A stretch of DNA of 33,204 bases from Micromonosporaceae bacterium (GTDB taxonomy: Bacteria > Actinomycetota > Actinomycetes > Mycobacteriales > Micromonosporaceae), in the NCBI GenBank assembly GCA_009380105.1, contig WHSM01000008.1, positions 1-33,204 on the forward strand. Reading direction: 5' to 3'. Of this stretch, positions 2,035 through 30,468 are shown one piece after another. The notes beneath the pieces were generated by a model, which was not told the DNA's origin, searched no databases, and was given only the letters and a program-made list of their open reading frames with translations. The translations under genes were made by a program, and so were the position numbers. Every line of letters starts with the position of its first letter. The first letter of the stretch is position 1.

Positions 2035-3219
2035 ATGAACCTCTTCTCGGCTGTCGAGGTCGGGGCGCTTGCAGGGCTGCGGGTGATCGAGATGGGCACC
2101 ATGATGGCCGGCCCGGTCGCTACCACCCTTTTGTCGGACTTCGGCGCCGAGGTCGTCAAGCTGGAGCCTCGGGTCGGCGATCCACTGCGCGGCATGGAAC
2201 CGCAGATTGAGGGAGTTTCCGCTTACTGGCTTGTCACCGCGCGGAACAAGCGGTCGGTCGTACTGGACGCCCGAGACGAATCCCGCCGGGCGGATTTCTT
2301 CTCGCTGACCGACCGTGCCGATGTTTTGGTGGAGAACTTCCGTGCCGGCACTCTGGAGTCCTGGGGAGTCGGACCTGACGTCTTGCTCGACCGCAACCCC
2401 AGACTCGTCATCGTCCGGGTCACCGGATTCGGGCAGGAGGGCCCCAACGCGTCCCTGCTCGCCTACGACCGCATCGTCCAACTGATGTCCGGTCTCGCCT
2501 CGGTCACCGGCTTCCCCGAGTCGCCACCCACGGTCGCCGGCTTCGCGCTCAGCGACCAGATCGCGGCACTGTTCGCCGCTTTCGGTGCGCTCCTCGGGTT
2601 GGCGGCCCGTGACAGCACCGGCGAGGGTCAGGTCGTCGACGTCGCCTCGCTCGACTGTCTAGTACGGCTCTCGGACGTCATCGTCACCGAGTACGACCGG
2701 CTCGGCATCGTCCGGGAAAGGGAGGGCAACAGCCACCCGTCCGCGGCGCCGATGAACATGTACCAGGCCCGCGACGGCGCTTGGGTCTACACCCAGGCGC
2801 CGACCAACGCCCAGTTCAAGCGGCTGGCGAAGGCGATCGACCGGCCCAATCTTCCGGCCGATCCCAGGTTCTGCGACAACAGCGCGCGCTTCGCCAACCG
2901 CGGCACACTCGACGGGATCATTCAGGCCTGGGTGTCCGAGCGGGACCACGCGGAGGTCCTCCGAACCTGGCGCACCGCCGACCTGCCCGCCGCGCCCGTA
3001 CGCGACGCCCGTGAGGTGGCCGAGGATCCGGGGCTGCGTCTGCGCGGTGCGGTACAACATGTCGACACGCCAGTCGGGCCAACGCTCATGCAAGGGATTG
3101 CGCCCAAGCTGTCCAGAACGCCTGGCGCCGTCAGGGGCGCCGCACCAGCACTCGACGAGGACTCGGTGGCCAGCGTCGTCGCCCGGTGGTCACAACGCCG
3201 AGACGAGGTCACGTTGTGA
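2035..3219 (+). CDS. Class III CoA-transferase (CaiB/BaiF family)
   Basis: The 394-residue protein matches the CaiB/BaiF (formyl-CoA transferase) family over its full length. Visible landmarks are the N-terminal GLRVIEMGTMMAGPVATTLLSDFGAEVVKLE, the ARNKRSVVLD strand, and LAYDRIVQLMSGLASVTG, in which Asp145 aligns with the catalytic Asp that forms the acyl-anhydride intermediate. Unlike the two AMACR-like paralogues later in the operon, it has Tyr-Asp rather than Gly-His-Asp at this point, which favours true CoA transfer over racemisation. It probably moves CoA from a pathway thioester to the incoming acid. ATG 2035 is 3 nt after the binding-protein stop, and the 3' end overlaps the next gene by 4 nt (GTGA). 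Acceptor and donor are not predictable. Confidence 0.88.
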   Translation: MNLFSAVEVGALAGLRVIEMGTMMAGPVATTLLSDFGAEVVKLEPRVGDPLRGMEPQIEGVSAYWLVTARNKRSVVLDARDESRRADFFSLTDRADVLVENFRAGTLESWGVGPDVLLDRNPRLVIVRVTGFGQEGPNASLLAYDRIVQLMSGLASVTGFPESPPTVAGFALSDQIAALFAAFGALLGLAARDSTGEGQVVDVASLDCLVRLSDVIVTEYDRLGIVREREGNSHPSAAPMNMYQARDGAWVYTQAPTNAQFKRLAKAIDRPNLPADPRFCDNSARFANRGTLDGIIQAWVSERDHAEVLRTWRTADLPAAPVRDAREVAEDPGLRLRGAVQHVDTPVGPTLMQGIAPKLSRTPGAVRGAAPALDEDSVASVVARWSQRRDEVTL

Positions 3220-3815
3220 ACGCCGCTGATCAAATCGAGGCAGCGGCGCGGTCGGTCGAGCCGGACCGTCGGGCGGCCTGGGGTTGTACGCTGCCCGACC
3301 ACGTCGACGTCGGCGAGGCGGCGGCCCTGGTGAGCAGACTCGGGTTCGGCGCGGTGTGGCTGCACGACCGCACCTGGGAAGGCGGCCCATGCGGCTTCGT
3401 CGAGGCGGTGGTGGCCGGCGTCGCAGTCCCGGCCACCACCTTCGGCGTGTGGACGCAGGCCGGTCGCGACCATCCCGTCCGGTTCGCCGAGGACGTCGCG
3501 GTCAGCGACCGCCTGCTCGGTGGCCGGTTGCGGGTAGGCGTCCGTGGTCCCTGTCCACCGGCATGGGCATACGCGGTCGCACACGCGTGGGACGAGGAGG
3601 GCTTGGCTGTCGATGAGCCGCTCCGCCTGCCAGCCAGGGACCCGGCGAACCAGTGGATTCCGTCCGGCTGGCGTCTCACCGTCAGCCCTCGGCCGTACTC
3701 GGCATTCGTCCTGCACGTCTCCGATGGCGAGGCCCTGGATGGCGTCGCGACACGCCGGGTGACCATCCGCCAGTCACTCGGCGCTGAACTGGTGCGCGTG
3801 GAGAGGGAGTCATGA
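3216..3815 (+). CDS. Small luciferase-like (LLM) domain protein
   Basis: This 199-residue protein resembles part of a luciferase-like flavin monooxygenase barrel. EAAALVSRLGFGAVWLHDR corresponds to the early 'GF-x-x-x-W-x-x-D' strand, and AEDVAVSDRLLGGRLRVGVRG to the 'lD-x-l-S-G-G-R-l-x-x-G-v-G' strand. Full LLM enzymes have about 280-400 residues, so more than a third of the barrel is missing and the C-terminal half does not look like the family. I chose GTG 3216, which overlaps the upstream stop (GTGA) and has GACGAGG just upstream, rather than the ORF-track ATG 3186 inside the preceding gene. It also overlaps the next gene by 4 nt (ATGA). A similar short protein is encoded at 24137. It might be a subunit or an accessory flavin protein; activity is uncertain. 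Confidence 0.6.
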   Translation: MNAADQIEAAARSVEPDRRAAWGCTLPDHVDVGEAAALVSRLGFGAVWLHDRTWEGGPCGFVEAVVAGVAVPATTFGVWTQAGRDHPVRFAEDVAVSDRLLGGRLRVGVRGPCPPAWAYAVAHAWDEEGLAVDEPLRLPARDPANQWIPSGWRLTVSPRPYSAFVLHVSDGEALDGVATRRVTIRQSLGAELVRVERES

Positions 3816-4960
3816 CGGCAACACAACCTATCGGCATCCTCGGCGCTGCCCGGACTCCTGTCGGCAAGACACCCGGCATCGACTCGCTCACGCTGCATGC
3901 ACAGGCCGCGCATGCCGCGATTACGGATGCGGGCATCGACCCGCTCGCGATCGACGGGATCATCACCTTCGGCTCGTTCACCAGGGACTACGTCATGCAT
4001 TCGGCCGTCGTGGCCGAGTTCCTCGGACTGCGCAGGATCAGGTACGCGGACGTGGTGAGGATTGGTGGTGCCTCGGCCGCGGGGGCGGTGAGCCGGGCGG
4101 TCGCGGCGATCAGCGCCGGCCGGTGCGACACCGTACTGATCGTCTCCGGTGACGACCAGCTCAGCGGCCTCACCCGAGACCTCGCCGTCAAGGGCATGGC
4201 CGAGAACCGCCACTACCAATACGAGGCGCCGTACGGCGTGACGACACCGGCGGCCTTCGCCATGATGGCGCGACTGTACCTGCAACGGCACCACCTCTCC
4301 GAAGAGTTGCTGGCCCACGTCACCGTGCAGAGCCGGCGCACCGCGTCGAAGCTACCCGACGCGATGTACGGCAAGCCGTGCACGGTCGGCGAGGTGAACT
4401 CGTCGAAGCCGATCGCCGATCCCCTGCGTATGCTGCACTGCGCCCCGATCGCGGACGGGGGAGGAGCACTGGTGGCGGGTCGCGGGGCACCCGGCGAGGT
4501 GGTCGAGGTCCTCGGGTCCGGCGAGGCCCACAGCAACGCGCACCTGGTCTTCAACCCGTTCGACGCGAGCAGCGCGGCCGCCGCCTCCGCCGGGCACGCC
4601 TTCCAACAGGCGGGCGTGCGCCCGGCGGACCTGGGAGCGGCGCAGGTCTACGACTGCTTCGCCAGCGTCGTGGCGCAGGTGCTGGAGGAGGCGGGGATAG
4701 CGCCCGCGGGCCGCGCACTGTACCAGTTCGCCGACGGTGAGTACGACGTCGACGGTGGCCTGCCGGTCAATCTCAACGGCGGTCTCCTCTCCGGTGGCCA
4801 TCCCGGGATGCCCGGGGGCTTGTTGCATGTGGTCGAGGCGGCCGAACAAGTGCGGGGCAGCGCGCGGGTTCCGGTCGCGGGCGGCAAGCCGGTGTTCGTC
4901 CACTGTCTTGGAGGCATCATGTCCAACCACGCCACGCTGATCCTGGGAGGAGGGTCATGA
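3812..4960 (+). CDS. Thiolase-fold protein, Ltp2-like (lipid-transfer/SCP2-thiolase type)
   Basis: The 382 residues have a thiolase fold of the SCP2/lipid-transfer subgroup: PIGILGAARTPVGK at the start, IGGASAAGAV near residue 84, YDCFASVVAQVLEEAG, and NLNGGLLSGGHPGMPGG with His330. The position of the nucleophilic Cys of true thiolases (C-A-S-G) is Gly86 here, so classical thiolytic chemistry is unlikely. A later Cys in HCLGG is kept. Members of this subgroup paired with DUF35 proteins, such as Ltp2 of actinobacterial steroid degradation, act as retro-aldolases on beta-hydroxyacyl-CoAs. The next two genes are a DUF35 protein and a MaoC-fold protein, the same three components as that system. 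Start and stop overlap the neighbours by 4 nt each. A substrate-specific aldolase is my preferred reading. Confidence 0.82.
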   Translation: MTATQPIGILGAARTPVGKTPGIDSLTLHAQAAHAAITDAGIDPLAIDGIITFGSFTRDYVMHSAVVAEFLGLRRIRYADVVRIGGASAAGAVSRAVAAISAGRCDTVLIVSGDDQLSGLTRDLAVKGMAENRHYQYEAPYGVTTPAAFAMMARLYLQRHHLSEELLAHVTVQSRRTASKLPDAMYGKPCTVGEVNSSKPIADPLRMLHCAPIADGGGALVAGRGAPGEVVEVLGSGEAHSNAHLVFNPFDASSAAAASAGHAFQQAGVRPADLGAAQVYDCFASVVAQVLEEAGIAPAGRALYQFADGEYDVDGGLPVNLNGGLLSGGHPGMPGGLLHVVEAAEQVRGSARVPVAGGKPVFVHCLGGIMSNHATLILGGGS

Positions 4961-5376
4961 CACTCCCAGGCGCCCCGCGCAGCACCGAGGCCGCCGAGTT
5001 CTGGAACGCACTTGGCGGGGGCGACGGCACGCTGCTGCGGCAGGAGTGCGTCCAGTGCGGACGGTCCCGCCTGCCGCGCACGGCGATGTGTCCGTACTGC
5101 GGCGGCTGGGAGTCGCACTGGCGACCGGTAACCGGCCCGGCTCGTCTGGTTACCTTCACCGTGATTCGCCGCGCCCCGTCTCCCGAGTGGGCTGCGCACG
5201 CCCCGTATGGCGTCGCGATCGTGGAGGTGGCTCCTGGCTGCCGGGTGCTGGTCAACACCGACTGGCTCCCCGAGCACGCCGACCTTGGTCGGCCGGTCGT
5301 GGTGGCGGTAGAGACGGGCGACGGCGGGCCGCGGCTGGTCGCCAGTCGCGGTGGCGACGAGGCGGTGAGCCAGTGA
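4957..5376 (+). CDS. DUF35 zinc-ribbon/OB-fold protein
   Basis: This 139-residue protein has the two-part DUF35 architecture. The N-terminal rubredoxin-like zinc ribbon has Cys31-x2-Cys34 and Cys45-x2-Cys48 (QECVQCG...MCPYCGG) with the typical LPR between the pairs. An OB-fold follows, with VTFTVIRR and APYGVAIVEV strands. DUF35 proteins bind thiolase-fold partners and acyl-CoA and are needed for activity of Ltp2-type aldolases. Here the gene follows the thiolase-fold gene with an ATGA overlap and precedes a MaoC gene with a shared TGATG junction, so the three products are expected to form a complex. A few weakly conserved residues precede the ribbon. The family call is strong, and its role as obligate partner is inferred from order. 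Confidence 0.88.
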   Translation: MTLPGAPRSTEAAEFWNALGGGDGTLLRQECVQCGRSRLPRTAMCPYCGGWESHWRPVTGPARLVTFTVIRRAPSPEWAAHAPYGVAIVEVAPGCRVLVNTDWLPEHADLGRPVVVAVETGDGGPRLVASRGGDEAVSQ

Positions 5377-5810
5377 TGCAGGGTCACGAACACCTTGCCG
5401 GGATCAGTCGGGCGGAGATCCTGGCCTTCGGCCGGCTTACCGGCAACAACCACGACATGCACACCAGCGACGAGGCCGCGATGGCCATGGGCTTTCCAGC
5501 GCAGGTGGTGCAGGGGCCATATGTACTCGCGCGCGGCATTGCGTCGTCGTCGGAGGTCCTTCGCGGACACGGCATAGCACTGCTCGGGGTCTCCTGGCGC
5601 TACACCGGTGCGGCCGTGGCCGACGAGCCGTTGGACCTGGGTTGGGAAGTGACCAGCGTGCGGCGGACCAGTGCCGGCGACCGTGGCGTGGCGGAGATGA
5701 CCCTGACGCTTCAGGCGGATGGCCGCAAGGTGGGCGAGGGGAACTTCACGGTGCTCGTCAGCAAGGATTTCACCGACCGCTTTCTGGCCGATCGGCGGGG
5801 CGAGACATGA
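5376..5810 (+). CDS. MaoC-like hot-dog protein with altered hydratase motif
   Basis: The 144-residue protein is a single MaoC-like hot-dog domain, with FGRLTGNNHDMHTSDEAA followed by GFPAQVVQGPYVLARG. In R-specific enoyl-CoA hydratases the motif is S-G-D-x-N-P-x-H. Here the catalytic Asp position is Asn24 and the N-P pair is His26-Asp27, while His29 is kept. It may therefore be a non-catalytic half of a heteromeric hydratase, a thioesterase-like binder, or a variant hydratase. The start ATG 5376 shares its A with the upstream TGA; GTG 5373 is also in frame. The ORF-track start at 5046 is inside the DUF35 gene. It ends with an ATGA overlap into the ligase gene. It probably works with the Ltp2-like and DUF35 proteins. 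Confidence 0.78.
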   Translation: MQGHEHLAGISRAEILAFGRLTGNNHDMHTSDEAAMAMGFPAQVVQGPYVLARGIASSSEVLRGHGIALLGVSWRYTGAAVADEPLDLGWEVTSVRRTSAGDRGVAEMTLTLQADGRKVGEGNFTVLVSKDFTDRFLADRRGET

Positions 5811-7357
5811 CAGCGCGTCGAGAGACACTGTGGACGCTGCTCGCGCGCCTGGCCGAGGAGGACGCGGACCGAGTCCTGATCCGGACCCGCGCGGGCGACG
5901 TGACGCGTGGTTCGCTGGCGGAGAGCGTGACCCGCTTGTCAGGCGGCCTCGCGGCGCTAGGCATCGGCCCCGGGGACCGGGTGGCGGTGTTCGCGGAGAA
6001 CCGTCCGGAACACTTCACGCTGGCGTTCGCGCTCAACCGAATCGGTGCCGCCTACTCGCCGGTCAACCCACTCTACCGTGGGGACCTCGTCGAGAACGCC
6101 TTTGACGTGCTGCGTCCCGCGGCCGTGGTCGTCGACCGCGCATGTCGCCCAGTGGTTGAGCCGTACCGGGACCGATCCGACCGGTGGGTGGAAATGGACC
6201 GGGGTGTGGGGCTGCCAGGGACGGTCGCCGACTACGCCGAGCTCGAGGCGGACGTTGACACACCGCCGGAAGTGGTCGTGGACCCGGGCAAAGGGGCCGT
6301 CGTGCTGTTCACGTCGGGGACGACAGGCCCCTCGAAGGGCGTCGCGATGAGCGACCGGTTCTGCCTGGAGTTCGGCGCGGCCAACGCGCAAGCCCGTGAC
6401 CTGCGCCATGACGACGTCCTGTACTCGTGTTTCGCGTTCTGTCACGCGAGCCCGATCGGCTATTCGCTCGTGCCAGCTTTACTGTCGGGCGCAGAGATGG
6501 CCTGGGCGCCGCGCTTCTCCGCAAGTGCATTCTGGGCGGATGTCCGCGATCTCGGCGCGACCCAGTTCGCCGCGTTCAGCGCCACGATCCTGATGCTGCT
6601 CGCACAACCCCCTCGCGAGACCGATGCCACACACGGCGCCCAGGTCTGTTTCTCGGTCGGCGCACCGCGGGGTGACGAGTTCTCGCGCCGCTTCGGCGTG
6701 CGGATCATCGACGGGTACGGCTTGTCGGAGTGCGGCGCCCTCGCCTACGACGGCGTACCGGTCGACGGTTGGACGGTCGCGGTGGTCGATGACAACGATC
6801 TGCCGGTGGCGGCTCGGACCATCGGCGAGATCGTGGGGCGTCCGGAGCGACCCGGCATGATCATGGACGGCTACCTGGGCCGTCCCGCCGAAACCCTCGA
6901 CGTATACCGGAACCTGTGGTTCCACACCGGAGACAACGGCTACCTCAACGAGGCCGGCAAGCTGCACTTCGTCGGGCGCAAGAAAGACGCGATGCGCCAC
7001 CGCGGCGAGAACATCTCCGCGTGGGAGGTGGAGCAGGCCGTGCTCGCCACCGGTCTGGTGCACGACTGCGCCGCGTACGCGCTGCCCTCGTCGAGCCTCG
7101 GCGAGGACGACGTCGCCGTCGCCGTCGTGCCGGCGTCGGCGGACTTCGACCCGGCCGCTCTGCTCGCCGCTCTGCCCGACCGGCTGCCCAAGTACGCGGT
7201 CCCGGCATTCGTACGAACGTTGGCCGACCTCCCACGTACCCCTACCGGGAAGGTCAAAAAGCACGAGCTCAGAGCTGCGGGTGCTACCCCAGATACCTGG
7301 AGATCGCCCAGGGCAACGGAACATCTCGTGGAGGGAAATGTCCATGACCACTCATAG
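5807..7357 (+). CDS. AMP-forming acyl-CoA synthetase (CaiC-like)
   Basis: The 516-residue protein is an ANL-superfamily acyl-CoA ligase that adenylates a carboxylic acid and transfers it to CoA. Motifs appear in order: phosphate loop TSGTTGPSKG at 169-178, DGYGLSECG at about 302-310, FHTGD at 372-376, the hinge region GRKKDAMRHRGENISAWEVE at 390-409, and PRTPTGKVKK with the likely catalytic Lys482. GENISAWEVE resembles crotonobetaine/carnitine-CoA ligases. I use ATG 5807 (ATGA overlap with the MaoC gene), not the ORF-track ATG 5642. The 3' end overlaps the next gene by 14 nt. A second ligase of a different subgroup lies at 13039, so two acids, or an acid and a pathway intermediate, may be activated. 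Confidence 0.9.
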   Translation: MTARRETLWTLLARLAEEDADRVLIRTRAGDVTRGSLAESVTRLSGGLAALGIGPGDRVAVFAENRPEHFTLAFALNRIGAAYSPVNPLYRGDLVENAFDVLRPAAVVVDRACRPVVEPYRDRSDRWVEMDRGVGLPGTVADYAELEADVDTPPEVVVDPGKGAVVLFTSGTTGPSKGVAMSDRFCLEFGAANAQARDLRHDDVLYSCFAFCHASPIGYSLVPALLSGAEMAWAPRFSASAFWADVRDLGATQFAAFSATILMLLAQPPRETDATHGAQVCFSVGAPRGDEFSRRFGVRIIDGYGLSECGALAYDGVPVDGWTVAVVDDNDLPVAARTIGEIVGRPERPGMIMDGYLGRPAETLDVYRNLWFHTGDNGYLNEAGKLHFVGRKKDAMRHRGENISAWEVEQAVLATGLVHDCAAYALPSSSLGEDDVAVAVVPASADFDPAALLAALPDRLPKYAVPAFVRTLADLPRTPTGKVKKHELRAAGATPDTWRSPRATEHLVEGNVHDHS

Positions 7358-8516
7358 TCGTCGGGAATTCCTGCGCGACGCCGCTCTTGCCGGTGCGACC
7401 CTCGCGGTGGGCGCCCCAGTCCTCGCCGGCTGTGGCGACGGCGCGGCCACGCCCGCTGCGGGCGACAGCAAACTGACATTCGGTGGCCTGACCGCACTGA
7501 CCGGTGCTGGTGCCGGCTCGGGCATCCCAATGCGGGAAGGCACGATGGTCGCGCTGGACAAGCTCAAGGCCGAGGGACACCGACTCGCCGCCGTCTTCCA
7601 GGATCACAAGGGCGAGCCGAACGCCGGCGTCGGCGGGTACCGCAAGCTTGTTGACGAGCGCAACGTTCCGGCGATTATTCTCGGCTTCTCGTCCGTCATC
7701 TCGGCAACCACCCCACTGGCCGATCGGCACAAGGTCCTGTTGCTGAACCCGAGCGGCACCGGGGCAAACCTGGAGGGCCTCGGCGAGTACCTGCTCAACA
7801 CAGAGGCGCTCGGGTCGCTGCACGCGCGCGCCATGGCCAAGTACGCGTTTGAGCAGGGCAAGCGTCGGGCCGGTCTTCTCATAGTGAACAACGACTCGGG
7901 CACGCCGCAGGCGGACAATTTCATCGAGGTGTTCCAGGGCGCGGGCGGGCAGATCGTCGTGCACGAGAAGTTCGAGCCGAACCAGATCGACTTCGGCTCG
8001 CAGATCGCGAAGATCAAGCCGCGGAATCCCGACGTCATGCTGGTGATCGGCGTGGTGCAGGAGACTTTCTATGGGATTCGCAGGTGCGTCGAGGCGGGCA
8101 TCGACGCTCAGTACATCGCGAACCAGGGCGTCGAGCAGGAGGAGGCTTATGAGATCGCCGGCAAGGCGCTGGAGGGCGTCTGGTATCCCGCGCCGGTCTT
8201 CGATCCGACGTCGAACGAGCCCGCGGTAGCAGAGTTCATCAAGCGTTACAAGGCGAAGTACGACAAGGACCCGATCGTGCTGGCGGCCCAGTGGTATCAG
8301 GCCGTGCACATTCTCGCCGAGGCGGCGCAGGCGGCTCCGGATCTTACCGGCGAGGCCTTACGCGCCAAGATTCTGGAGATCAAGACGTTCGACGGGGTGA
8401 CCGGCAAGACCGTGTTCCAGGAGAACGGCACGGTGCTCAAGCCGCTGCACGTCAAGCAGATCGGATCCGGATTCAGCAAGAACGTGCTGACCGAGCTGCC
8501 GCCGGAGTACGTGTGA
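7344..8516 (+). CDS. ABC transporter substrate-binding protein, Tat lipoprotein, Liv/HAAT type
   Basis: This 390-residue receptor belongs to the Peripla_BP_6 family. It has a twin-arginine signal (SRREFL, Arg6-Arg7) followed by a lipobox VLAGC with Cys30, so it should be exported folded and lipid-anchored. The mature part begins with KLTFGGLTALTGAG and shows the two-lobe pattern of the family. Three in-frame ATGs exist (7281, 7338, 7344). I chose 7344 because GGAGGG at 7330-7335 is 8 nt upstream and the signal peptide then starts cleanly. It is followed by two permeases and two ATPases, so it is the cognate receptor of that transporter. The ligand is unknown, probably the acid or ester degraded by the cluster. 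Confidence 0.88.
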   Translation: MTTHSRREFLRDAALAGATLAVGAPVLAGCGDGAATPAAGDSKLTFGGLTALTGAGAGSGIPMREGTMVALDKLKAEGHRLAAVFQDHKGEPNAGVGGYRKLVDERNVPAIILGFSSVISATTPLADRHKVLLLNPSGTGANLEGLGEYLLNTEALGSLHARAMAKYAFEQGKRRAGLLIVNNDSGTPQADNFIEVFQGAGGQIVVHEKFEPNQIDFGSQIAKIKPRNPDVMLVIGVVQETFYGIRRCVEAGIDAQYIANQGVEQEEAYEIAGKALEGVWYPAPVFDPTSNEPAVAEFIKRYKAKYDKDPIVLAAQWYQAVHILAEAAQAAPDLTGEALRAKILEIKTFDGVTGKTVFQENGTVLKPLHVKQIGSGFSKNVLTELPPEYV

Positions 8517-9409
8517 ACCTCTTCCTTCAACTGCTGGGGAGCGGGCTGGTCGTTGGCGCGATGTATGCTCTCTTCGCGCTGGGGTTCGCCTTCGTGTTCG
8601 CCGTCACCCGCGTGTTCCACCTGGCGCAGGCGGCGACGTACACGCTGGCCGCGTTCGTCTTTTACCTCGTCTACGTCGAGGCCGAGCTCCACCCGGTGCT
8701 GGCGGTGCTGGTCGCCGCCGCCACCGCGATCTGTTTCGGGGTGCTCTGTGAGCTGGTGGTCTACCGTCCGCTGCGACACCGCAGCAACGGCGACCAGATA
8801 TCCACGCTGGTGGTGGCGCTGGGTGTGGTGATCGTCGTGGAAAACGCCGTCGGGCTGTTGTTCGGCACACAGCCGAGGGGCTACAGCTCGTCTGACGTCA
8901 CCAGTTCGGTGCGCTTGCTCGGCATCAGTCTGACCGTGCCACAGGTGCAGATCGTCGTCGTCGCCGTGCTCGTGCTGCTCCTGTCCTTGGCGTTCATCCG
9001 TTACACCCGGCCGGGTCGCGAGATGGCGGCGGTGTCGGACAACCCTGAGCTCGCCGAGCTGATCGGGGTGTCGGTGCGCCGTACGTATGTGTGGGCGTTC
9101 GTGGCCGGCTCGTTGGTCGTGGCCATTGCGGCGCTAATGGTGGGCCGGAACACCGGCATCTATCCGACCATGGGTCTCAACCCGGTGCTGGTCGGTGCGG
9201 TGGCGGTGATCGTCGCCGGTAACGGCCGTCTCCTGCCCGTCTTCGGCAGCGCTGTGGTGATGGGTCTGCTGGAGAACCTCGCCGTGCTCCGGCTCCCGTC
9301 GAGCTGGCAGCCCACTGTCCTGTTTGGTGCGCTCGTCATTGTGCTGCTGGCCCGGCCTTACGGCTTGTTCAGCTCTCGGGAAAGGAGCTTCGTGCAATGG
9401 AGTTCCTGA
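8513..9409 (+). CDS. ABC transporter permease, LivH type
   Basis: The 298-residue protein is a very hydrophobic inner-membrane permease of the LivH family. Its N-terminus (NLFLQLLGSGLVVGAMYALFALGFAFVFAVTRVFHLAQA) is the usual first pair of membrane segments with the family's 'G-a-x-Y-A-L-x-A-L-G' and 'H-x-A' patterns, and RYTRPGREMAAVSDNPELAELIGV is the cytoplasmic coupling loop that contacts the ATPase. About eight membrane segments can be drawn. The start is GTG 8513, overlapping the receptor stop (GTGA); the ORF-track start at 8291 lies inside the receptor gene. It overlaps the LivM-type gene by 13 nt. Substrate specificity follows the receptor, not this subunit. Confidence 0.88.
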   Translation: MNLFLQLLGSGLVVGAMYALFALGFAFVFAVTRVFHLAQAATYTLAAFVFYLVYVEAELHPVLAVLVAAATAICFGVLCELVVYRPLRHRSNGDQISTLVVALGVVIVVENAVGLLFGTQPRGYSSSDVTSSVRLLGISLTVPQVQIVVVAVLVLLLSLAFIRYTRPGREMAAVSDNPELAELIGVSVRRTYVWAFVAGSLVVAIAALMVGRNTGIYPTMGLNPVLVGAVAVIVAGNGRLLPVFGSAVVMGLLENLAVLRLPSSWQPTVLFGALVIVLLARPYGLFSSRERSFVQWSS

Positions 9410-10329
9410 CGTTCCTCGTCTTCCTCGGCTGCATGTACTCGATCCTGACCTCTTCGTTCGGGCTGTTGATGGGGCTGGGCCGGCAGTTCTCCATGGCACA
9501 CGCCGGCATGTGGGGGCTGGGCGCCTATGCCTCTGCGTATGTGACGCTGAAGCTGGAGTGGCCGCTGTGGTGGGGAGTGCCGGTGGCGCTGCTGGCTGGT
9601 GCGCTGGCCGGTGCGTTGGTCGCCATTCCGGCGCTGCGGGTGGGCGTCGGCGTCTACCTCGCGATCGTCACCTTCGCGTTCCAAATGGTATTCGTCAACA
9701 TGCTGAGAAACCTGACCGAGCTCACCGGCGGGTCGCACGGCATGGCGGGCATGCCGGCGTTCCCCGCCGTCGGCACCCTGTCCACCACGCAGACGGTCAC
9801 GCTATACACCGCGATCGCAGCGGCGGCCGCGCTGCTGCTGACACACCTGTGGCGGCACGGTTCCTACGGGCGGGTGCTGCTCGCACTCGGCCGAGACGAG
9901 AAAGTCCTCGAGGGCTTGGGCCGGGACGTCCGCTGGCTGAAGATCCAGCTGTTCGCCATCACCGGCGCGTTGGGTTCGCTGGCCGGCGTCTTTTACGCCC
10001 AGTACCTGAGCTTCATCAGCCCGGACTCCTTCACCGTGCACGAATCCATCTTGGTGATGACCATGCTGCTGATCGGTGGGGCGTTCACCACTCTCGGTCC
10101 GGTCGTCGGTGCCTGGTTCTTCGTCCTGGTGCCGGAGCTGCTCACCCGGCTCGGCCTGCCGGACTCGGTGGCTGCCGCGCTGCAACAGATCCTCTTCGGT
10201 CTGCTGCTGGTCGTCTTCATGATTTTCCGGCCGCAGGGCATCGTGGCACCGCGCCGACGGCGGCAGCGACGCCCGCCCGGCAACGTCGACGCACATTCCG
10301 GCACGGCGACTGTGGGCGCGGCGAGATGA
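9397..10329 (+). CDS. ABC transporter permease, LivM type
   Basis: This 310-residue permease pairs with the LivH-type protein encoded just upstream. It contains SSFGLLMGLGRQFSMAHAGMWGLGAYASAYV, the LivM signature around 'G-x-x-S-x-a-H-A-x-x-x-G-x-G-A-Y', and the coupling loop RHGSYGRVLLALGRDEKVLEGLGRDVRWLKIQLF. The C-terminus is Arg-rich and cytoplasmic. AAAGGAG lies about ten bases before ATG 9397. The gene ends 19 nt before the first ATPase; this gap, the largest inside the operon, contains a mini-ORF described separately. Confidence 0.88.
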   Translation: MEFLTFLVFLGCMYSILTSSFGLLMGLGRQFSMAHAGMWGLGAYASAYVTLKLEWPLWWGVPVALLAGALAGALVAIPALRVGVGVYLAIVTFAFQMVFVNMLRNLTELTGGSHGMAGMPAFPAVGTLSTTQTVTLYTAIAAAAALLLTHLWRHGSYGRVLLALGRDEKVLEGLGRDVRWLKIQLFAITGALGSLAGVFYAQYLSFISPDSFTVHESILVMTMLLIGGAFTTLGPVVGAWFFVLVPELLTRLGLPDSVAAALQQILFGLLLVVFMIFRPQGIVAPRRRRQRRPPGNVDAHSGTATVGAAR

Positions 10330-10352
10330 GCGAGCGAAGCGAGACGGCATGA
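10326..10352 (+). other. Eight-codon mini-ORF with GAGCGAAGCG repeat at a gene junction
   Basis: ATG 10326 overlaps the TGA of the LivM-type gene (ATGA). It reads MSERSETA and stops at TGA 10350-10352, which again overlaps the ATG of the ATPase gene at 10349. The ATPase start has no strong Shine-Dalgarno, so ribosomes could pass from permease to mini-ORF to ATPase by two successive ATGA couplings. A near-copy, ATGAACGAGCGAAGCG, begins the AtuA-like gene at 19597, where it is fused in frame. Translation of the mini-ORF is not proven. Confidence 0.4.
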
Positions 10353-11122
10353 GCGCCATCATCGAGGTGCGTGGGGTCACCAAGCGGTTCGGTGGGATAA
10401 CCGCACTCTCGGACGCGTCGATAGACGTGCCCGAACAGGGCGTGTTGGGCCTGATCGGCCCGAACGGTGCTGGCAAGACCACGCTGTTCAACGTCATCAG
10501 CGGACACCTACGAGCCGATCGGGGCACCGTCACCTTTCGTGGCCAGCGCATCGAGCGGCGCCGGGCCTCCAGGCTGGCCAGGCTGGGTATGGCCCGCTCG
10601 TGGCAGGACGTCGGGGTGCTGCCGGGGTTGACGGTCCTGGACAACGTTCTCATCGGACGGCGTACCCGTCACTCCGAGTATCCAATCTGGGGCCTTGTGC
10701 GGTGGCGAGCCGCCAGGGCTGAGGAGCGGCAGGCGAGATGGCAGGCGCTGGAGGCGTTGCACCGCGTCGGGCTCGCAGACGACATCGCCAGCGCACAGGT
10801 TGACGATCTCGCGTTCGCCGAGCAGAAGCTCGTCGCAATGGCCCGGCTGCTGGTGGCCGAACCCAAGGTGCTGCTGCTCGACGAGCCGGCCTCCGGACTC
10901 GACACGGACAGCGTGGATCGCTTGCTGCGCGTCATCGGGTCAATCGCGGGGGCCGGCGTCCCGGTTCTGCTTGTGGAGCACAACCTGGCGGTGGTCCGGA
11001 AGGTGGCCGACCGGGCGGTGTTCATGAGTAATGGGCGCGTCGTGGCGGTGGACACGCCAGACAACCTGGTCCGGCGGGACGATCTGATCGAGCTCTACTT
11101 CGGGAGCAGGTGGACCACGTGA
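10349..11122 (+). CDS. ABC transporter ATP-binding protein, LivG type
   Basis: The 257-residue nucleotide-binding subunit has Walker A GPNGAGKTT at 37-45, the LivG-type insert rich in Arg after the first strands (RARWQALEALHRVGL), Walker B VLLLDEPASGLD, and a switch His in LLVEHNLAVV. The signature motif is degenerate: DDLAFAEQKLVAMA stands where LSGGQ is expected. Such drift is seen in other LivG-type proteins; in a LivG/LivF heterodimer it would weaken one of the two ATP sites. It acts at the cytoplasmic face of the two upstream permeases. ATG 10349 is chosen for its family-like N-terminus (IIEVRGVTKRFGGITAL). Confidence 0.9.
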   Translation: MSAIIEVRGVTKRFGGITALSDASIDVPEQGVLGLIGPNGAGKTTLFNVISGHLRADRGTVTFRGQRIERRRASRLARLGMARSWQDVGVLPGLTVLDNVLIGRRTRHSEYPIWGLVRWRAARAEERQARWQALEALHRVGLADDIASAQVDDLAFAEQKLVAMARLLVAEPKVLLLDEPASGLDTDSVDRLLRVIGSIAGAGVPVLLVEHNLAVVRKVADRAVFMSNGRVVAVDTPDNLVRRDDLIELYFGSRWTT

Positions 11123-11832
11123 CGACATCGGTGCTGCGCTGCCAGGAGCTCTTCGCCGGCTACCGGCGACGGCCGGTCGTCCGGGATGTGTCGTTTGACC
11201 TCGCCGCCGGCCAGGTGCTCGGGATGCTGGGGCACAACGGTGCTGGCAAGACCACGATCCTGCGCGCCATCATGGGTAGCTGCGAGATCCTCGGTGGAGA
11301 GGTTTACCTCGGCGCAACAGCGATCAGCCGGAAACCGACGTGGCAACGTGCGCGCGCCGGGATCGCGCTCGTACCACAGGAGCGGAAGGTCTTCCGTGGC
11401 CTTAGCGTGGCGCAGAACCTCGAGAACGCCGCGCGTTTCGTCGACTCCAACCGTGCGGCGCAGGCTGGCCGTGTGGAGGAGGCGCTGAGGTGGTTTCCCG
11501 CCTTGAGGCAGCGGTACCAGGTCGTCGCCGGTTCGCTGTCGGGTGGGGAACAGCAGATGCTGGCACTCGCCATCGCGCTGGTACGCCAGCCGAAGGTGCT
11601 CCTGCTCGACGAGCCCAGCTTCGGTCTGGCGCCGCGTATGGCGGAGACGGTCATGGAGACCGTGCGTGCCTTCTGCGTCGAGAGTGACCTCGGCGTAGTC
11701 GTCGTCGAGCAGAGTCCCCGGTACCTCGAGCTCATCACCCCGTGCGCTCTGCTCGTCCGACTCGGCAGCGTGGTACGTGAAGCAGATCTGACGGATCTGA
11801 ACAGCCATGCCGACATTGTGGAGGTGTTGTGA
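11119..11832 (+). CDS. ABC transporter ATP-binding protein, LivF type
   Basis: This 237-residue ATPase is the LivF partner. It has Walker A GHNGAGKTT, a canonical signature LSGGEQQMLALA, Walker B VLLLDEPSFGLAP and the switch region VVVVEQSPRYLE, with Gln where many ABC proteins have His, as is normal for LivF. I chose GTG 11119, which overlaps the LivG-type stop (GTGA) and has AGGTGG just upstream; GTG 11110, used by the ORF track, is the alternative and adds three residues. It completes transporter 1, whose subunits are encoded from 7344 to 11832. The next gene follows after a single base. Confidence 0.9.
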   Translation: MTTSVLRCQELFAGYRRRPVVRDVSFDLAAGQVLGMLGHNGAGKTTILRAIMGSCEILGGEVYLGATAISRKPTWQRARAGIALVPQERKVFRGLSVAQNLENAARFVDSNRAAQAGRVEEALRWFPALRQRYQVVAGSLSGGEQQMLALAIALVRQPKVLLLDEPSFGLAPRMAETVMETVRAFCVESDLGVVVVEQSPRYLELITPCALLVRLGSVVREADLTDLNSHADIVEVL

Positions 11833-11833
11833 C

Positions 11834-13042
11834 GTGGGGGAGGTGGCCGGCGACCGGGAGGCTATGACCGGGTTCCGGTCGGTACTGCGGGAGTATCTCG
11901 ACGAGCGGGTACGGCCGCAGGTGTCGGCGGCGGAGCAGGCGAGACGGCTGCCTTGGCAGATCGTCCGCCAGCTCGGTGAGCTGGGATACCTTTCGGTCGG
12001 GCTCCCCGGGGAGCATGGTGGCGGACTCGGCAAGGTCGGCGACTTCGTGCTGATCGAGGAACTGGCTCGTGTGTGGGGGTCGCTGGCGATGGCCGTCATG
12101 TCCTCTGCGATCATCCCGGCTCGGCTCTGCCTGGAGTCCGGCTCCACCGGGCTGTGGGAGCGGCACGGTCAGCGGGCCGCTCGCGGCGAGGTGCCGGCGG
12201 CGTTCGCGCTCACCGAGATGGACGCCGGATCGGACGCTGGCGCCCTGGTTACCGTCGCCGAGGCGGCGCCCGGGGGCGGCTGGCGGTTGAACGGGCACAA
12301 GGCGTACGTGACCTGCGGGGCCGACGCCGGTTTCGGCATCGTCGGCGCGAAGCTCGAGTCACCGGACGCCCGCGAGATCGGTCTGTTTCTGGTCGCCGGC
12401 AACCCGATGCCGTGGAGGGTCTCCCGGCGGCACGACATGGATTGTCACCGGGCGGTCGATGTGGTCGACGTCGCGCTCTCGGGGGTGAAGGTGGATGCCG
12501 CCGCGCGCCTGGACTCGGAGCACAAGAATATCTGGCGCAGCCTGGCCGGGGAGCGGATCCTGAGTACGGCGCTCGCGGTGGGGCTGGCCCAGGGAGCACT
12601 CGACGCCGGGACTCGGTACGCCTCGCAGCGGCACCAGTTCGGCCGGCCGATCGGCTCCTTCGGCGAGATTCTGCGGATGCTCGCCGACTCCGAGGCGGAG
12701 GTGTCGGCCGCCAGAGCGCTTGGTATGCAGGCCGCGGTCGACTGGGATGCCGGTGACCACGGTGCACTCGGGCCCAGCCGCGCGAAGCTGTTCGCCACCG
12801 AGGTCGCGGTGCGGGTTACCGAGCGGGCGCAGCACGTCCACGGCGGTTACGGCCAGATGTCCGAGTTCGACGTGGGTCGCTTCGCGCGGGACGCGCGGAT
12901 GGGCCCGGTGGGTGGCGGGGTGTCCGAGATCCAGGCCCGCATCGTCGCGCGGGCCATCGGCCTACCCGTGCCCGGCCGGCCCGGCGGGCGACCCGGGCGT
13001 GACAGGCGGCTGCCCGGTGCCGGCGGAAGGAAGATCACATGA
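11834..13042 (+). CDS. Acyl-CoA dehydrogenase family protein
   Basis: The 402-residue flavoprotein would introduce an alpha,beta double bond into an acyl-CoA. The FAD/substrate segment ALTEMDAGSDAGALVT, RLNGHKAYVT, the RHQFGRPIGSF motif and the C-terminal VHGGYGQMSEFDVGRFARDARMGPVGGGVSEIQ are all present. At the MCAD-type catalytic Glu position (the YEGT motif) it has GGG, but Glu240 in LAGERILSTALAVG matches the isovaleryl-CoA/long-chain dehydrogenase position. It should thus be active, with the base on helix G, as in enzymes for branched or bulky substrates. The start is GTG 11834 with GGAGG nine bases upstream; ATG 11864 is an alternative. It overlaps the next gene by 4 nt. Confidence 0.87.
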   Translation: MGEVAGDREAMTGFRSVLREYLDERVRPQVSAAEQARRLPWQIVRQLGELGYLSVGLPGEHGGGLGKVGDFVLIEELARVWGSLAMAVMSSAIIPARLCLESGSTGLWERHGQRAARGEVPAAFALTEMDAGSDAGALVTVAEAAPGGGWRLNGHKAYVTCGADAGFGIVGAKLESPDAREIGLFLVAGNPMPWRVSRRHDMDCHRAVDVVDVALSGVKVDAAARLDSEHKNIWRSLAGERILSTALAVGLAQGALDAGTRYASQRHQFGRPIGSFGEILRMLADSEAEVSAARALGMQAAVDWDAGDHGALGPSRAKLFATEVAVRVTERAQHVHGGYGQMSEFDVGRFARDARMGPVGGGVSEIQARIVARAIGLPVPGRPGGRPGRDRRLPGAGGRKIT

Positions 13043-14613
13043 ACATGCGCGACTACTGGGACCGGGTCACGAGGCGGTACGCCGACCGGCCGGCGCTTGA
13101 ATGTGACGAGCGGGCGATGACCTACGCCGAGCTGGGACGGGAGACGAACCGGTTGGCGAACGGGCTGCTCGGGCTCGGTCTCCAACAGGGCGACCGGGTG
13201 GGCGTGCTGTTCCACAACTCGATCAACTGGGCGTTGGCCGACCTCGCGACGATGAAGGCGGGCCTGGTCCATGTGCGGCTGCACACGAAGCTCACCGTCG
13301 CGGACTTCGAGTATCTGGTCGCGGACTCCGGCTGCCGGGCGATCATCGGTGACGACGACCTCCTGGCACCGCTGAGGGCGGAGGCCGACCGGTTCCCAAG
13401 CGTCAAGTGGTGGATCGGTACGCGGGACGGTGATCTGCGCCTGCCCGCCCTGCTCCGGTCTGGCTCCGCGGGCCGAGTCGACACCGACGCCGTCACCCCG
13501 TCGTCGTTGTGCAGCATCCGCTACACCGCGGGTACCACCGGACGTCCGAAGGGAGCGACATTCACCCACGCCCGCCGCGCTCTCGGCATCGGCGTCTACC
13601 TCGCTGAGGAGAGTTGGACGCGGTCCGCCCCGTCCGGCGGTATTGGCCGGCCCGAGTCGACGTTGATCGTCTCGCCGCTGACCCACGCTGGCGCGAGCTA
13701 TCTGTACTGGACGTTGACGACCGGTGGCGTCACCGTGCTGCTGAACCGGCCCTCGTTCGACCCAGAGCTCGTCACCCGGACCTTGCGCGAGCGGCGGGTG
13801 ACCCACACGTTCCTCGTACCCACCATGATCCACGACCTGATCTCCTCGTGCGGCGACATGATGCGCGGCAGCGTCCTTCCACTGAGGACGCTCATGTACG
13901 GTGCGGCACCCATGCCCCCGCCATTGCTCGAGGACTGCAGAGAGCGGTTTGGCGAGATCGTCATCCAGAGTTACGGGCTGACCGAGGCCAACGGCGTTCT
14001 CGCGCTGTTGCACAAGGAGGACCACCGGGTCGCGCCGACCTCGGTCGGTCGCGCTACCGCACAGACCGGCATCGCGGTCGTGGATCCCGAGGGGAACCGG
14101 CTACCACCCGGCGAGGCGGGAGAGATCGTCGGTTGGGGACCGCATGTCGCTACCGGTTACCTGGACCGCCCGGAGGCGACGGCCGAGAAACTGGGTGGCG
14201 GTGTCGTACGTACCGGGGATGTGGGCGTACTGGACGAGGACGGCTATCTCTACCTGAAGGACCGGATGGACGACATGATCATATCTGGTGGCCTGAACGT
14301 GTACCCGAGCGAGGTCGAGGGAGTGCTCGCGGGGATCAGCGGCGTCGCCGAGGTTTCAGTGGTGTCGCGGCCCCATCAACGCTGGGGCGAGGAGGTGGTG
14401 GCGGTCGTGGTCCCGGTCCCGGGGGGGTCGGTCGATCCGGGCGCCGTGCAACACGAGGCTCGCGACCGGTTGGGCGGCTACCGCCGCCCGAAGACCTTTT
14501 TCACCGCGGACGCCCTACCCAAGAGCCAGAGCGGCAAGGTACTCCGCCGTGAGGTACGTCAGCGGCTGGCCGCCGGCGAGTATCGGTTGCTCGCCGAGGA
14601 GGGTGTGTCATGA
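13039..14613 (+). CDS. AMP-forming acyl-CoA synthetase (fatty/cinnamoyl-CoA ligase-like)
   Basis: This 524-residue ligase has the ANL motifs in order: YTAGTTGRPKG at 162-172 (Ala replaces Ser in the loop), QSYGLTEANG, VRTGDVGVLDEDGYLYL, KDRMDDMIISGGLNVYPSEVE, and the C-terminal PKSQSGKVLRRE bearing the catalytic Lys. The GGLNVYPSEVE hinge is typical of medium/long-chain and aryl acid CoA ligases, whereas the ligase at 5807 has GENISAWEVE; the two are not recent duplicates. It lies between two acyl-CoA dehydrogenase genes with ATGA overlaps on both sides, so it probably activates an acid oxidised directly by them. The exact acid cannot be predicted. Confidence 0.9.
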   Translation: MNMRDYWDRVTRRYADRPALECDERAMTYAELGRETNRLANGLLGLGLQQGDRVGVLFHNSINWALADLATMKAGLVHVRLHTKLTVADFEYLVADSGCRAIIGDDDLLAPLRAEADRFPSVKWWIGTRDGDLRLPALLRSGSAGRVDTDAVTPSSLCSIRYTAGTTGRPKGATFTHARRALGIGVYLAEESWTRSAPSGGIGRPESTLIVSPLTHAGASYLYWTLTTGGVTVLLNRPSFDPELVTRTLRERRVTHTFLVPTMIHDLISSCGDMMRGSVLPLRTLMYGAAPMPPPLLEDCRERFGEIVIQSYGLTEANGVLALLHKEDHRVAPTSVGRATAQTGIAVVDPEGNRLPPGEAGEIVGWGPHVATGYLDRPEATAEKLGGGVVRTGDVGVLDEDGYLYLKDRMDDMIISGGLNVYPSEVEGVLAGISGVAEVSVVSRPHQRWGEEVVAVVVPVPGGSVDPGAVQHEARDRLGGYRRPKTFFTADALPKSQSGKVLRREVRQRLAAGEYRLLAEEGVS

Positions 14614-15791
14614 ACCCGGCCGCGCCATTTGTCGCCGGCCCGCCGCTGAACCAGGCCGCCGACTACGCCGAGAAGCGCCGGACCGAGCTGCGCGGGATGG
14701 TCGAGGAGCGAATCGCCCCGCTGGTGCCAGAGGCCGAGGAGCACGAGAGCTTCCCGCTCGACGTGCCGAAGATGCTCGGCGAGGCGGGCTTCCTGAGCGT
14801 TGGTGCACCGGTCCACGACGGGGGAGCCGGCGCCGGCCGCACGGCCGAGTCGATGGTCGTGGAGGAACTGACCCGCGCGTCGGCCGGGATCGCGATGTCG
14901 ATCATGCCGTACTTCATCGTGCGCGTCGGGCTCTCGGAGTTCGGCACAATCCAGGCGCGCGACGAGGTCGGCGAGCCGATGCTGCGCGGAGAGCGGATAG
15001 TGGGCATCTCGATAACCGAGCCCGACGCCGGCTCCGACGCCGGCTCGCTATCGACGACCGCGACGCCGGACGGCACTGGGTTCCGGTTGTCCGGCAACAA
15101 GATCTTCACCACCAACGGCACCATCGCCACCGACCTGCTGGTGGCGGCACGGGTCGCCGGACACACCGGCATCGGCGGCATCGGGCTCTTCCTGGTGGAG
15201 ACCGACCAGCCAGGGTACGAGGCGAGCAAGCTCCGCAAGGAGTCGTGCCGCAGTTCGGACACCGCCGCCGTGCACTTCGACGGCTGCTACGTACCCGGGC
15301 ATCGGGTCGTCGGTGATGCCGTCGGAGGCTTCAAGTCAGCGATGCACGTCCTCAACGGCGAACGCGTCATCTCCATCTCTCGGGCGCTGGCGCTCGGCGA
15401 GAGCTCCTGGGAGGACGCGGTCGACCACGTTCAGGGTCGGCGGCAGTTCGGCGCGACGATCGCCTCATTTCAACAGGTGCAGGCACCGCTGGCCCAGGCG
15501 GCGGCCCAGCTGTGGCTGATCCGTACGGCGCTGCGCGAGGTCTGCCGTGGCTGGGACGCTGGCGAGGACATGGTCGCGCAGATCGCGATGCTCAAGTCCT
15601 TCTCAGCAGAGTGCGCCGTCGACATCACACGCACCTGCCAACACGTCATGGGCGCCCGCGGCCTGCACAGGCTCAGCCGCGTGGCACGCAACGCCCGCGA
15701 CGCGCGGCTCGGCCCGGTGGGGGCGGGCAGCGTGCAGGTGATGCACCGAATACTGGCGAAGCGCTTCGGATTCCCGGTGGCTGTCGAATGA
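14610..15791 (+). CDS. Acyl-CoA dehydrogenase family protein
   Basis: The 393-residue second dehydrogenase of the operon shows SITEPDAGSDAGSLSTT, FRLSGNKIFTTNG, RRQFGATIASFQQ and a C-terminal HVMGARGLHRLSRVARNARDARLGPVGAGS. As in its neighbour, the MCAD-type Glu is replaced (GAGS), while Glu251 in LNGERVISISRALALG stands at the isovaleryl-CoA-dehydrogenase position. Similar gene pairs in actinobacterial steroid degradation form alpha2beta2 heterotetramers in which one subunit lacks the base. Here both keep a candidate Glu, so two separate homotetramers or an unusual heteromer are equally possible. ATGA overlaps link it to the ligase upstream and the AMACR-like gene downstream. Confidence 0.87.
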   Translation: MNPAAPFVAGPPLNQAADYAEKRRTELRGMVEERIAPLVPEAEEHESFPLDVPKMLGEAGFLSVGAPVHDGGAGAGRTAESMVVEELTRASAGIAMSIMPYFIVRVGLSEFGTIQARDEVGEPMLRGERIVGISITEPDAGSDAGSLSTTATPDGTGFRLSGNKIFTTNGTIATDLLVAARVAGHTGIGGIGLFLVETDQPGYEASKLRKESCRSSDTAAVHFDGCYVPGHRVVGDAVGGFKSAMHVLNGERVISISRALALGESSWEDAVDHVQGRRQFGATIASFQQVQAPLAQAAAQLWLIRTALREVCRGWDAGEDMVAQIAMLKSFSAECAVDITRTCQHVMGARGLHRLSRVARNARDARLGPVGAGSVQVMHRILAKRFGFPVAVE

Positions 15792-19600: not shown

Positions 19601-20997
19601 ACGAGCGAAGCGCTGGCGGTATGAGCGCGGCAGTGGTACGCCTTGGCGGATGCCTGGCCGGTTGGGGTGATTGGCCGGGTGGCGCCGTACCCATGGTCGA
19701 GCGCGGCGGCGTGGACTATCTCGGCTACGACTTCCTCTCCGAGCTGACCATGACGATCCTCGCGAAGCGGCGCGCCCGGCTCGGGCCGCACGAGGGCTAC
19801 GTACCCGATGTCGCCCGTATCCTGGCGCCGGTACTGCCTGCCGCCGGTGAGGGACGCACCCGGGTGGTGACGAACGCCGGTGGGATGTACCCGCGGGGTG
19901 CTCTGCGGAAGGTTGCCCGTGCGCTGGTGGAGGCGGGGTTTCCGGACACGCCGGTGGCCGAGGTTACCGGGGATGACGTTCTCGGCCGGCTGGACACCTT
20001 TGTCGCCGAGGGTGTGGAGCTGACCGATCACGCGACGGGGATGCACTTCAGGGAGTACGCCGACCGGGCCGTGTTCGCGCACGCGTATCTGGGCGCGCGT
20101 CCGGTCCAGGAGGCCCTGGCCGCTGGCGCGCACGTGGTAACCGCAGGCCGGGTGACCGACGCGGCGCTGTTTCTCGGACCGATCCTCCATGAGACTGGTT
20201 GGCGTGACCTCGACCGGCTCGCCACCGGTCTCGTCGTGGGACATCTGCTGGAGTGCTCCGGGATGGTGACCGGCGGCTCCAGTAACTTTTGGCGCGATGC
20301 GGTCGATCCGTGGAATCCGGGTTACCCCGTGGCGGAGGTCGGCCGGGACGGCTCGGTGGTGATTACGAAGACGCCCGGAACGGGTGGCCTGGTCAGCCGC
20401 GGGACGGTCATCGAGCAACTGCTGTACGAGATACACGACCCGGCCGCGATCGTGTCACCCGACGTCGTAGCGGACATCACCGCGGCGCATGTCGGCCAGG
20501 TGGGTCGTGACCGGGTCGCGGTCAGCGGTGTGCGCGGCACACCCGCGCCTGACACACTCAAGTTGCTCATCGGCTACCGCGACGGTTGGACCGGCGAGGG
20601 CACGATCATGTTCAGCTGGCCAGAAGCCCTGGACAAGGCGAGGCGCGCCGAGCAGATCCTCCGCCACCGGATCGACGCCGAGGCGTTGCCCGTGAGGGAG
20701 CTGCTCTTCGAGTACATCGGCGTCAACGCGCTGCACGGACCGACGGCACCGATTCCGCCGGACCCCAACGAGGTGATGCTGCGGGTGTGCGGAAGGTTTG
20801 ACCGGGCCGAGCCGGCTCGCGCACTCTTCGAGCTCATCCTGCCGCTGTTCTCGATGGCCCCCGCGACGCCAGCCGGGTTCGCCGGGCGGCCCGCGGTCCG
20901 GGAAACCGTGGCGCTCGCCGTCACCGCGCTGCCCGCCGCCCTCGTTTCTCCCCGGGTCGACTGTCTGCCGGCGCGCGAGGCCGCAGAGGAGGAGTGA
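19597..20997 (+). CDS. AtuA-like acyclic terpene utilisation protein (DUF1446)
   Basis: This 466-residue protein matches the main DUF1446/AtuA domain: DYLGYDFLSELTMTILAKRR, TNAGGMYPRGALRKVA, HVVTAGRVTDAALFLGPI, LLECSGMVTGGSSNFW, and KTPGTGGLVSRGTVIEQLLYEIHDP. AtuA is required for growth of Pseudomonas on citronellol and geraniol, but its reaction is not established to my knowledge. Full AtuA proteins carry an extra C-terminal ferredoxin-fold domain, which here is a separate gene starting at 20999. The start ATG 19597 overlaps the LLM stop and begins with MNERSAGG; ATG 19621 (MSAAVV) is the alternative. The ORF-track start at 19363 is inside the LLM gene. No geranyl-CoA carboxylase genes are in the window. 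Confidence 0.85.
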   Translation: MNERSAGGMSAAVVRLGGCLAGWGDWPGGAVPMVERGGVDYLGYDFLSELTMTILAKRRARLGPHEGYVPDVARILAPVLPAAGEGRTRVVTNAGGMYPRGALRKVARALVEAGFPDTPVAEVTGDDVLGRLDTFVAEGVELTDHATGMHFREYADRAVFAHAYLGARPVQEALAAGAHVVTAGRVTDAALFLGPILHETGWRDLDRLATGLVVGHLLECSGMVTGGSSNFWRDAVDPWNPGYPVAEVGRDGSVVITKTPGTGGLVSRGTVIEQLLYEIHDPAAIVSPDVVADITAAHVGQVGRDRVAVSGVRGTPAPDTLKLLIGYRDGWTGEGTIMFSWPEALDKARRAEQILRHRIDAEALPVRELLFEYIGVNALHGPTAPIPPDPNEVMLRVCGRFDRAEPARALFELILPLFSMAPATPAGFAGRPAVRETVALAVTALPAALVSPRVDCLPAREAAEEE

Positions 20998-24072: not shown

Positions 24073-24091
24073 AAGCCACCCCTCCTCAGGG

Positions 24092-24113
24092 ACCGTATTC
24101 GGTATACGATACT
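24092..24113. promoter_or_regulatory. Divergent promoter region with putative operator (site 2)
   Basis: The 64-bp space between the minus-strand crotonase and the plus-strand LLM-like gene contains CCGTATTCGGTATACGATAC. CGTAT (24094-24098) and ATACG (24104-24108) are perfect inverted arms around TCGGT, and GTAT/ATAC arms nest further to the right. The arrangement CCGTAT-YCKGT-ATAC is the same as in site 3 near 26981. TACGAT (24105-24110) on the plus strand and TAGTAT (24114-24109) on the minus strand could serve as -10 boxes, so a bound protein would block both directions. Operator function is inferred. Confidence 0.55.
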
Positions 24114-24136
24114 ACAGGGTCTCTTGGAGGTGGTGC

Positions 24137-30459: not shown

Positions 30460-30468
30460 CGGTCCGGG

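Follow-up and report, generated by a model that had tools for sequence, protein, structure and literature searches.

A cysteine-less thiolase-fold protein and its DUF35 neighbour in a Micromonosporaceae bacterium: a probable acyl-CoA retro-aldolase of the Sal/Ltp2 superfamily

Three overlapping genes on the plus strand of a 33,204-nucleotide stretch of DNA from a Micromonosporaceae bacterium (assembly GCA_009380105.1, contig WHSM01000008.1; the whole stretch is referred to here as the window) encode a thiolase-fold protein (382 amino acids, 3812-4960), a DUF35 / ChsH2-type zinc-ribbon OB-fold protein (139 amino acids, 4957-5376) and a MaoC-like hot-dog protein, here called MaoC1 (144 amino acids, 5376-5810). 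The first two proteins probably form an acyl-coenzyme A (CoA) retro-aldolase of the Sal/Ltp2 superfamily, with DUF35 as the partner of the aldolase and a beta-hydroxyacyl-CoA as substrate. A DUF35-dependent retro-aldol class is well supported, since the homologues CtSal and TcLtp2 are retro-aldolases, the Tyr/Cys pair of Sal is present, and the same set of genes recurs at other loci. The motifs, the clade and the gene order are read directly from the sequence, and from these we infer the complex and its reaction. An earlier note on this DNA had described the three open reading frames as a thiolase-fold, DUF35 and MaoC-like module, and their coordinates, strand and Pfam matches bear this out, with the MaoC match falling below threshold.

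The thiolase-fold protein matches Thiolase_N (PF00108) and Thiolase_C_1 (PF22691) above the Pfam cut-offs. Its Gly86 aligns with the nucleophilic Cys of the thiolase 7yvy, both in HMMER matches to solved structures and in a multiple alignment, and assignment as a canonical or SCP2 thiolase was rejected because that Cys is absent. The same substitution had been claimed in the earlier note, and both alignments place Gly at the site. Across 52 aligned rows, comprising homologues from the window's own genome, from relatives and from plasmids, and four PDB rows, Gly86 occurs with Tyr280 in 45 and Cys86 with His280 in five, while one row has Ala/Asn and one is missing the region. The co-variation is perfect, with Gly always accompanied by Tyr (45/45) and Cys by His (5/5), and loss of the nucleophile thus goes hand in hand with replacement of the xDxF His by Tyr. 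Judged from these rows, the Gly86/Tyr280 combination is an inherited active-site switch, and not a chance replacement. Loss of the Cys together with the His-to-Tyr change in xDxF is already known as the distinguishing feature of Ltp2 and Sal, both aldolases (PMC12329534).

The best match of the window protein among solved structures is 9myr (E 9e-47), followed by 4u4e; 9myr is taken to be CtSal because it has a YDCY motif and a DUF35 chain as partner. CtSal, from Comamonas testosteroni, is a retro-aldolase in which Tyr302 and Cys304 of the YDCY motif are essential, and which has Gly at the nucleophile position (PMC12329534). By motif alignment, Tyr280 and Cys282 of the window protein (YDCF) are equivalent to this dyad, and the two proteins are 33% identical over the aligned part. 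The CtSal-CtShy system shares with the window a thiolase fold, Gly in place of Cys, the Tyr-Asp-Cys dyad, and DUF35 and MaoC partners.

The adjoining gene product consists of OB_ChsH2_C (PF01796, E 4e-10) and zf-ChsH2 (PF12172, E 6.5e-6) domains, and retains an intact zinc ribbon (C31, C34, C45 and C48), a point on which the earlier note was correct. The protein matches the DUF35 chains of 6ok1 (TcLtp2), 9myr (CtSal) and 6esq (an archaeal thiolase complex), and its ribbon is of the C4 type, whereas that of CtShy is reported as C3H1. Fourteen loci that belong to the same clade or class were read across several kilobases; in about ten of them the aldolase gene has a DUF35 gene adjoining it or close by, and genes for MaoC proteins, crotonases, acyl-CoA dehydrogenases, ligases and CaiB transferases recur at these loci. 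The separation of DUF35 and MaoC into two genes, to which the earlier note drew attention, is real but not unusual, being the rule in the clade of the window protein. In another actinobacterium, Mycolicibacterium neoaurum, the retro-aldolase Atf1 is likewise proposed to act with a stand-alone DUF35 protein, ChsH4 (PMC10398937). Unlike the window protein, Atf1 is Sal-type and sterol-specific, as judged by its 56% identity to Sal1.

The residue aligned with His330, which retains the histidine of the thiolase GHP motif and corresponds to Gln352 of Sal and Tyr344 of Ltp2, sorts these proteins into three signatures: Gly-Tyr-His-Tyr for Ltp2, Gly-Tyr-Cys-Gln for Sal, and Gly-Tyr-[Cys/Ser/Ala]-His for a larger group to which the window protein belongs. 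In a maximum-likelihood tree, the window protein falls in a 10-row clade (support 95/94) with Alpha- and Betaproteobacterial plasmid proteins, a protein of Mycolicibacterium chubuense (its sister, 96/81) and proteins of actinobacterial genomes. Ltp2 and Sal each form a separate 100/100 clade, and the window protein lies outside both in the best tree; the wider histidine group occupies one side of a branch that is without support (67/57). The signature and the retained histidine are shared by 4u4e, described only as a structure named 'Thiolase', which differs in having YDSF rather than YDCF and in belonging to another subclade of the histidine group; it comes from Sphaerobacter thermophilus. 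A search for a close orthologue yielded none, the best identity being about 41%, in plasmids. Under strict cut-offs, only 2 of 299 genomes of the same order and 3 of 397 of the same phylum were positive, each count including the window's own genome, and a scan of the genome collection with the window aldolase returned a single distant, Cys-bearing thiolase.

Several points weigh against a retro-aldolase with a Sal-like dyad. Most members of the clade have Ser or Ala, not Cys, at position 282, while the C304S and C304A variants of CtSal are dead (PMC12329534), and thus either members of the clade must use different acids or the reaction itself may differ. The window protein has His330 where Sal has Gln and Ltp2 has Tyr, and no DUF35 gene lies near the aldolases of two clade members, those of Salipiger and Celeribacter, though an intact MaoC gene adjoins each. 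The literature search returned no characterised activity for any protein in the exact clade. A model of the aldolase fold, built from a two-row input, was of too low confidence to be used (predicted local distance difference test, pLDDT, 37.6), and the neighbouring MaoC1 has lost a catalytic residue, as described below. Since the Ser and Ala members have no thiol of the kind that CtSal requires, the general acid of the histidine group is probably not Cys alone, and His330 is a candidate for this role. The type of enzyme is known, whereas the literature searched has no characterisation of the clade, of its signature or of its substrate.

Two other activities fit parts of the evidence. The protein could act in the manner of Sal on a longer side chain (C5-like), possibly that of a sterol or terpenoid, as would be consistent with the Tyr-Asp-Cys motif, with CtSal as best structural match, and with an approximately unbiased (AU) test that does not reject a grouping with Sal (p = 0.27). 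This is quite unlikely, however, in view of the placement outside the Sal clade in the best tree, the replacement of Gln347 and Gln352, which tune the Cys in Sal, by Leu and His330, and the partner proteins, since in CtShy a DUF35 domain with a C3H1 zinc site is fused to a MaoC domain that is active. Equally doubtful is a decarboxylase or Claisen-type enzyme that uses the Cys-less thiolase fold on malonyl- or beta-ketoacyl-CoA instead of an aldol reaction. TbSLP, which also has YDCF, decarboxylates malonyl-CoA, but only at 0.005 per second, and the window protein retains the GHP histidine and a Cys in the CxG loop (Cys365), as in working thiolases; against this, such activity is absent in CtSal, and the dehydrogenases and hydratase fold encoded in the operon would yield hydroxyacyl-CoAs rather than malonyl substrates. 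Cys365 (4904-4906, plus strand) lies in a CxG-like loop, VHCLGG, and is shared in the alignment by one distant relative only.

The earlier note had equated the module with Ltp2, and this part of it does not stand. TcLtp2 of Thermomonospora curvata (PDB 6ok1) is a DUF35-bound, Cys-less retro-aldolase that uses Tyr294 of a YDHF motif, equivalent to Tyr280, together with Tyr344. A steroid C3 side-chain aldolase of the Ltp2 type, from a cholesterol or bile-acid pathway, would account for the shared superfamily, the C4 DUF35 ribbon like that of the TcLtp2 partner and the adjoining MaoC gene, but is highly improbable, because the window protein has YDCF and His330 in place of YDHF and Tyr344, the AU test rejects its grouping with Ltp2 (p = 0.001), the uptake genes are of the Liv type and not Mce, no steroid-ring gene was recognised within the window, and the genome carries a true Ltp2 (L014, with YDHF and AYIH) elsewhere, from which the window protein must be a different enzyme.

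The earlier note suggested, by analogy with cholesterol degradation, hydration followed by retro-aldol cleavage; this is well supported for the retro-aldol class, and is doubtful for hydration by the adjacent MaoC protein. MaoC1 reaches 23.2 bits against MaoC_dehydratas (PF01575), for which the cut-off is 27. Where SGDxxxxH is expected it has TGNNHDMH, such that Asn24 replaces the catalytic Asp while His29 is kept, and VQG replaces AHG in the alignment with retention of the oxyanion Gly. The protein is also without some 15-20 N-terminal residues, corresponding to the first strand of the fold; neither this truncation nor the Asn24 substitution was remarked on in the earlier note. The Asp of the Asp/His dyad of MaoC proteins positions the water molecule (PMC11321319), and MaoC1 does not carry the combination of Asp/His dyad and AHG-type Gly that marks a MaoC (R)-specific hydratase. 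A low-confidence model of MaoC1 (pLDDT 60.9) supports the hot-dog fold only, with matches to MaoC hydratases and dehydratases, HadAB and the ChsH1-ChsH2 chains.

A second MaoC protein, MaoC2 (26446-26925, minus strand; PF01575, E 1.7e-19), has an intact dyad (SGDHTALH, AHG) and resembles the aldolase-adjacent MaoC proteins of Salipiger, Celeribacter and Sinorhizobium (118, 118 and 88 bits, respectively). The aldolase-DUF35 pair of Azospirillum, Roseovarius and a Paracoccaceae strain is accompanied by one short, dyad-less hot-dog-like protein and one intact MaoC protein, an arrangement reminiscent of ChsH1-ChsH2, in which only one subunit is catalytic (PMC11321319). Because MaoC1 is degenerate, the dyad of MaoC2 is intact and these loci pair the two forms in the manner of ChsH1-ChsH2, MaoC1 probably contributes little or no catalysis as a hydratase partner, and hydration is proposed to be carried out by MaoC2 or by a crotonase. 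That MaoC1 is itself a working hydratase which tolerates Asn24 is unlikely: His29 and the oxyanion Gly are retained and the gene lies next to the aldolase-DUF35 pair, but Asp occupies this site in all the dyad-bearing relatives aligned, the start of the fold is truncated, and the aldolase-adjacent MaoC proteins at sister loci resemble MaoC2 and not MaoC1. In M. chubuense NBB4 (locus L022, 9631-11502), four MaoC-type genes lie in a row, one of them annotated as dihydroxy-acid dehydratase, and the dyad is clear only in the product of 10086-10511.

For the proposed retro-aldolase, a pathway can be drawn in which the neighbouring ligases and acyl-CoA dehydrogenases would make an enoyl-CoA, which MaoC2 or a crotonase, perhaps with a weak or inactive MaoC1 as partner subunit, would hydrate to the beta-hydroxyacyl-CoA. 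Tyr280 would then act as a base on the beta-hydroxyl, which the main chain at Gly86, the site of the thiolase Cys, may hold in place; the alpha-beta carbon-carbon bond would break with release of a ketone or aldehyde, and Cys282, tuned by His330, would protonate the acyl-CoA enolate to give acetyl- or propionyl-CoA. The DUF35 protein may shape the pocket and dock the hydratase. These residues are all present in the window protein, and the roles suggested for them in the aldol step are modelled on CtSal and TcLtp2.

The Liv-type transport genes, the BadH/BadI-like genes and the lack of recognised steroid-ring genes in the window suggest a small branched or alicyclic acid, and not a steroid, as the most likely substrate. 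Retro-aldol chemistry by Cys-less thiolases does not seem to be confined to steroids, since IpfD, encoded on plasmid pIBU218 of R. wittichii, is a proposed retro-aldolase acting on a non-steroid hydroxyacyl-CoA in ibuprofen degradation (PMC9195938). IpfD, like the window protein, is a Cys-less thiolase-fold protein whose gene adjoins that of a DUF35 protein, IpfE, with CaiB and crotonase genes also shared, and differs in being Ltp2-type by motif (YDHF and Tyr). Hints of alicyclic acid breakdown with ring opening (for the pathway, see PMC9795900) come from a short-chain dehydrogenase/reductase (24703-25452, plus strand) with BadH, a 2-hydroxycyclohexanecarboxyl-CoA dehydrogenase, as its best NCBIfam model, and from a crotonase-fold protein (27804-28610, plus strand) near MenB and BadI, a 2-ketocyclohexanecarboxyl-CoA hydrolase, both matches being far under the cut-offs of those models. 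A more specific scheme, which must be regarded as distinctly speculative and rather improbable, is one of non-steroid side-chain removal, in which ligase, dehydrogenase, hydratase and Cys-less aldolase would yield acetyl-CoA and a ring ketone from a branched or ring-acetic acid, using a third active-site design with the GHP histidine at the place held by the second Tyr in Ltp2 and by Gln in Sal. Ougham and Trudgill reportedly showed such chemistry biochemically for cyclohexaneacetate in Arthrobacter, with conversion of the ring-acetic acid to a ring ketone and acetyl-CoA, and to our knowledge no gene has been assigned to this side-chain removal.

Carbon-carbon bond cutting by thiolase-fold enzymes through a retro-aldol reaction is known for steroids and has been proposed for ibuprofen. 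A third, wider group, marked by its own signature (Gly, Tyr, Cys/Ser/Ala, His) and present in both Actinobacteria and Proteobacteria, is indicated by the sequences considered here; its members are commonly annotated as thiolases or acetyl-CoA acetyltransferases despite missing the residue for thiolysis. If this is confirmed, many annotations of this kind would be wrong, and the group would offer catalysts that cut or form carbon-carbon bonds in branched and cyclic acids.

The module is followed by an AMP-binding acyl-CoA ligase (5807-7357, plus strand; PF00501, with the best NCBIfam model, NF004808, under its cut-off), and stop and start codons overlap at every junction from the aldolase through DUF35 and MaoC1 to the ligase start at 5807, implying that these genes are co-expressed. 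Upstream lie a CaiB-type CoA-transferase (2035-3219, plus strand; PF02515, E 3.5e-117) and a short luciferase-like protein of about 209 amino acids (3186-3815, plus strand), in which some 80 residues give a partial, sub-threshold match to PF00296, and whose gene overlaps both the CoA-transferase gene and the aldolase start codon. The plus strand of the window carries in all CaiB transferases, two ligases, two acyl-CoA dehydrogenases, crotonases, luciferase-like proteins, an AtuA homologue and a Liv-type ATP-binding cassette (ABC) transporter set, with a second Liv-type set at the right end on the opposite strand. Three Liv-type substrate-binding proteins and two branched-chain-type ABC sets are found within 33 kb (880-2031 and 7281-11832, plus strand; 28607-33203, minus strand). 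A lone plus-strand frame at 23315-24673 was dropped, as a crotonase gene occupies the minus strand there.

The two acyl-CoA dehydrogenases (11807-13042 and 14610-15791, plus strand) flank the second ligase (13039-14613), and both are without the usual YEGT glutamate and have a Glu in a GER motif, the position known from isovaleryl-CoA dehydrogenase. The AtuA homologue is encoded at 19624-20997 on the plus strand. The association of AtuA with such aldolases is a lead only, as most plasmid AtuA matches that are comparable by position do not lie near an aldolase; M. chubuense NBB4, Comamonas endophytica and Methylobacterium aquaticum do have an AtuA gene within a few kilobases of genes for a Cys-less thiolase and a DUF35 protein.

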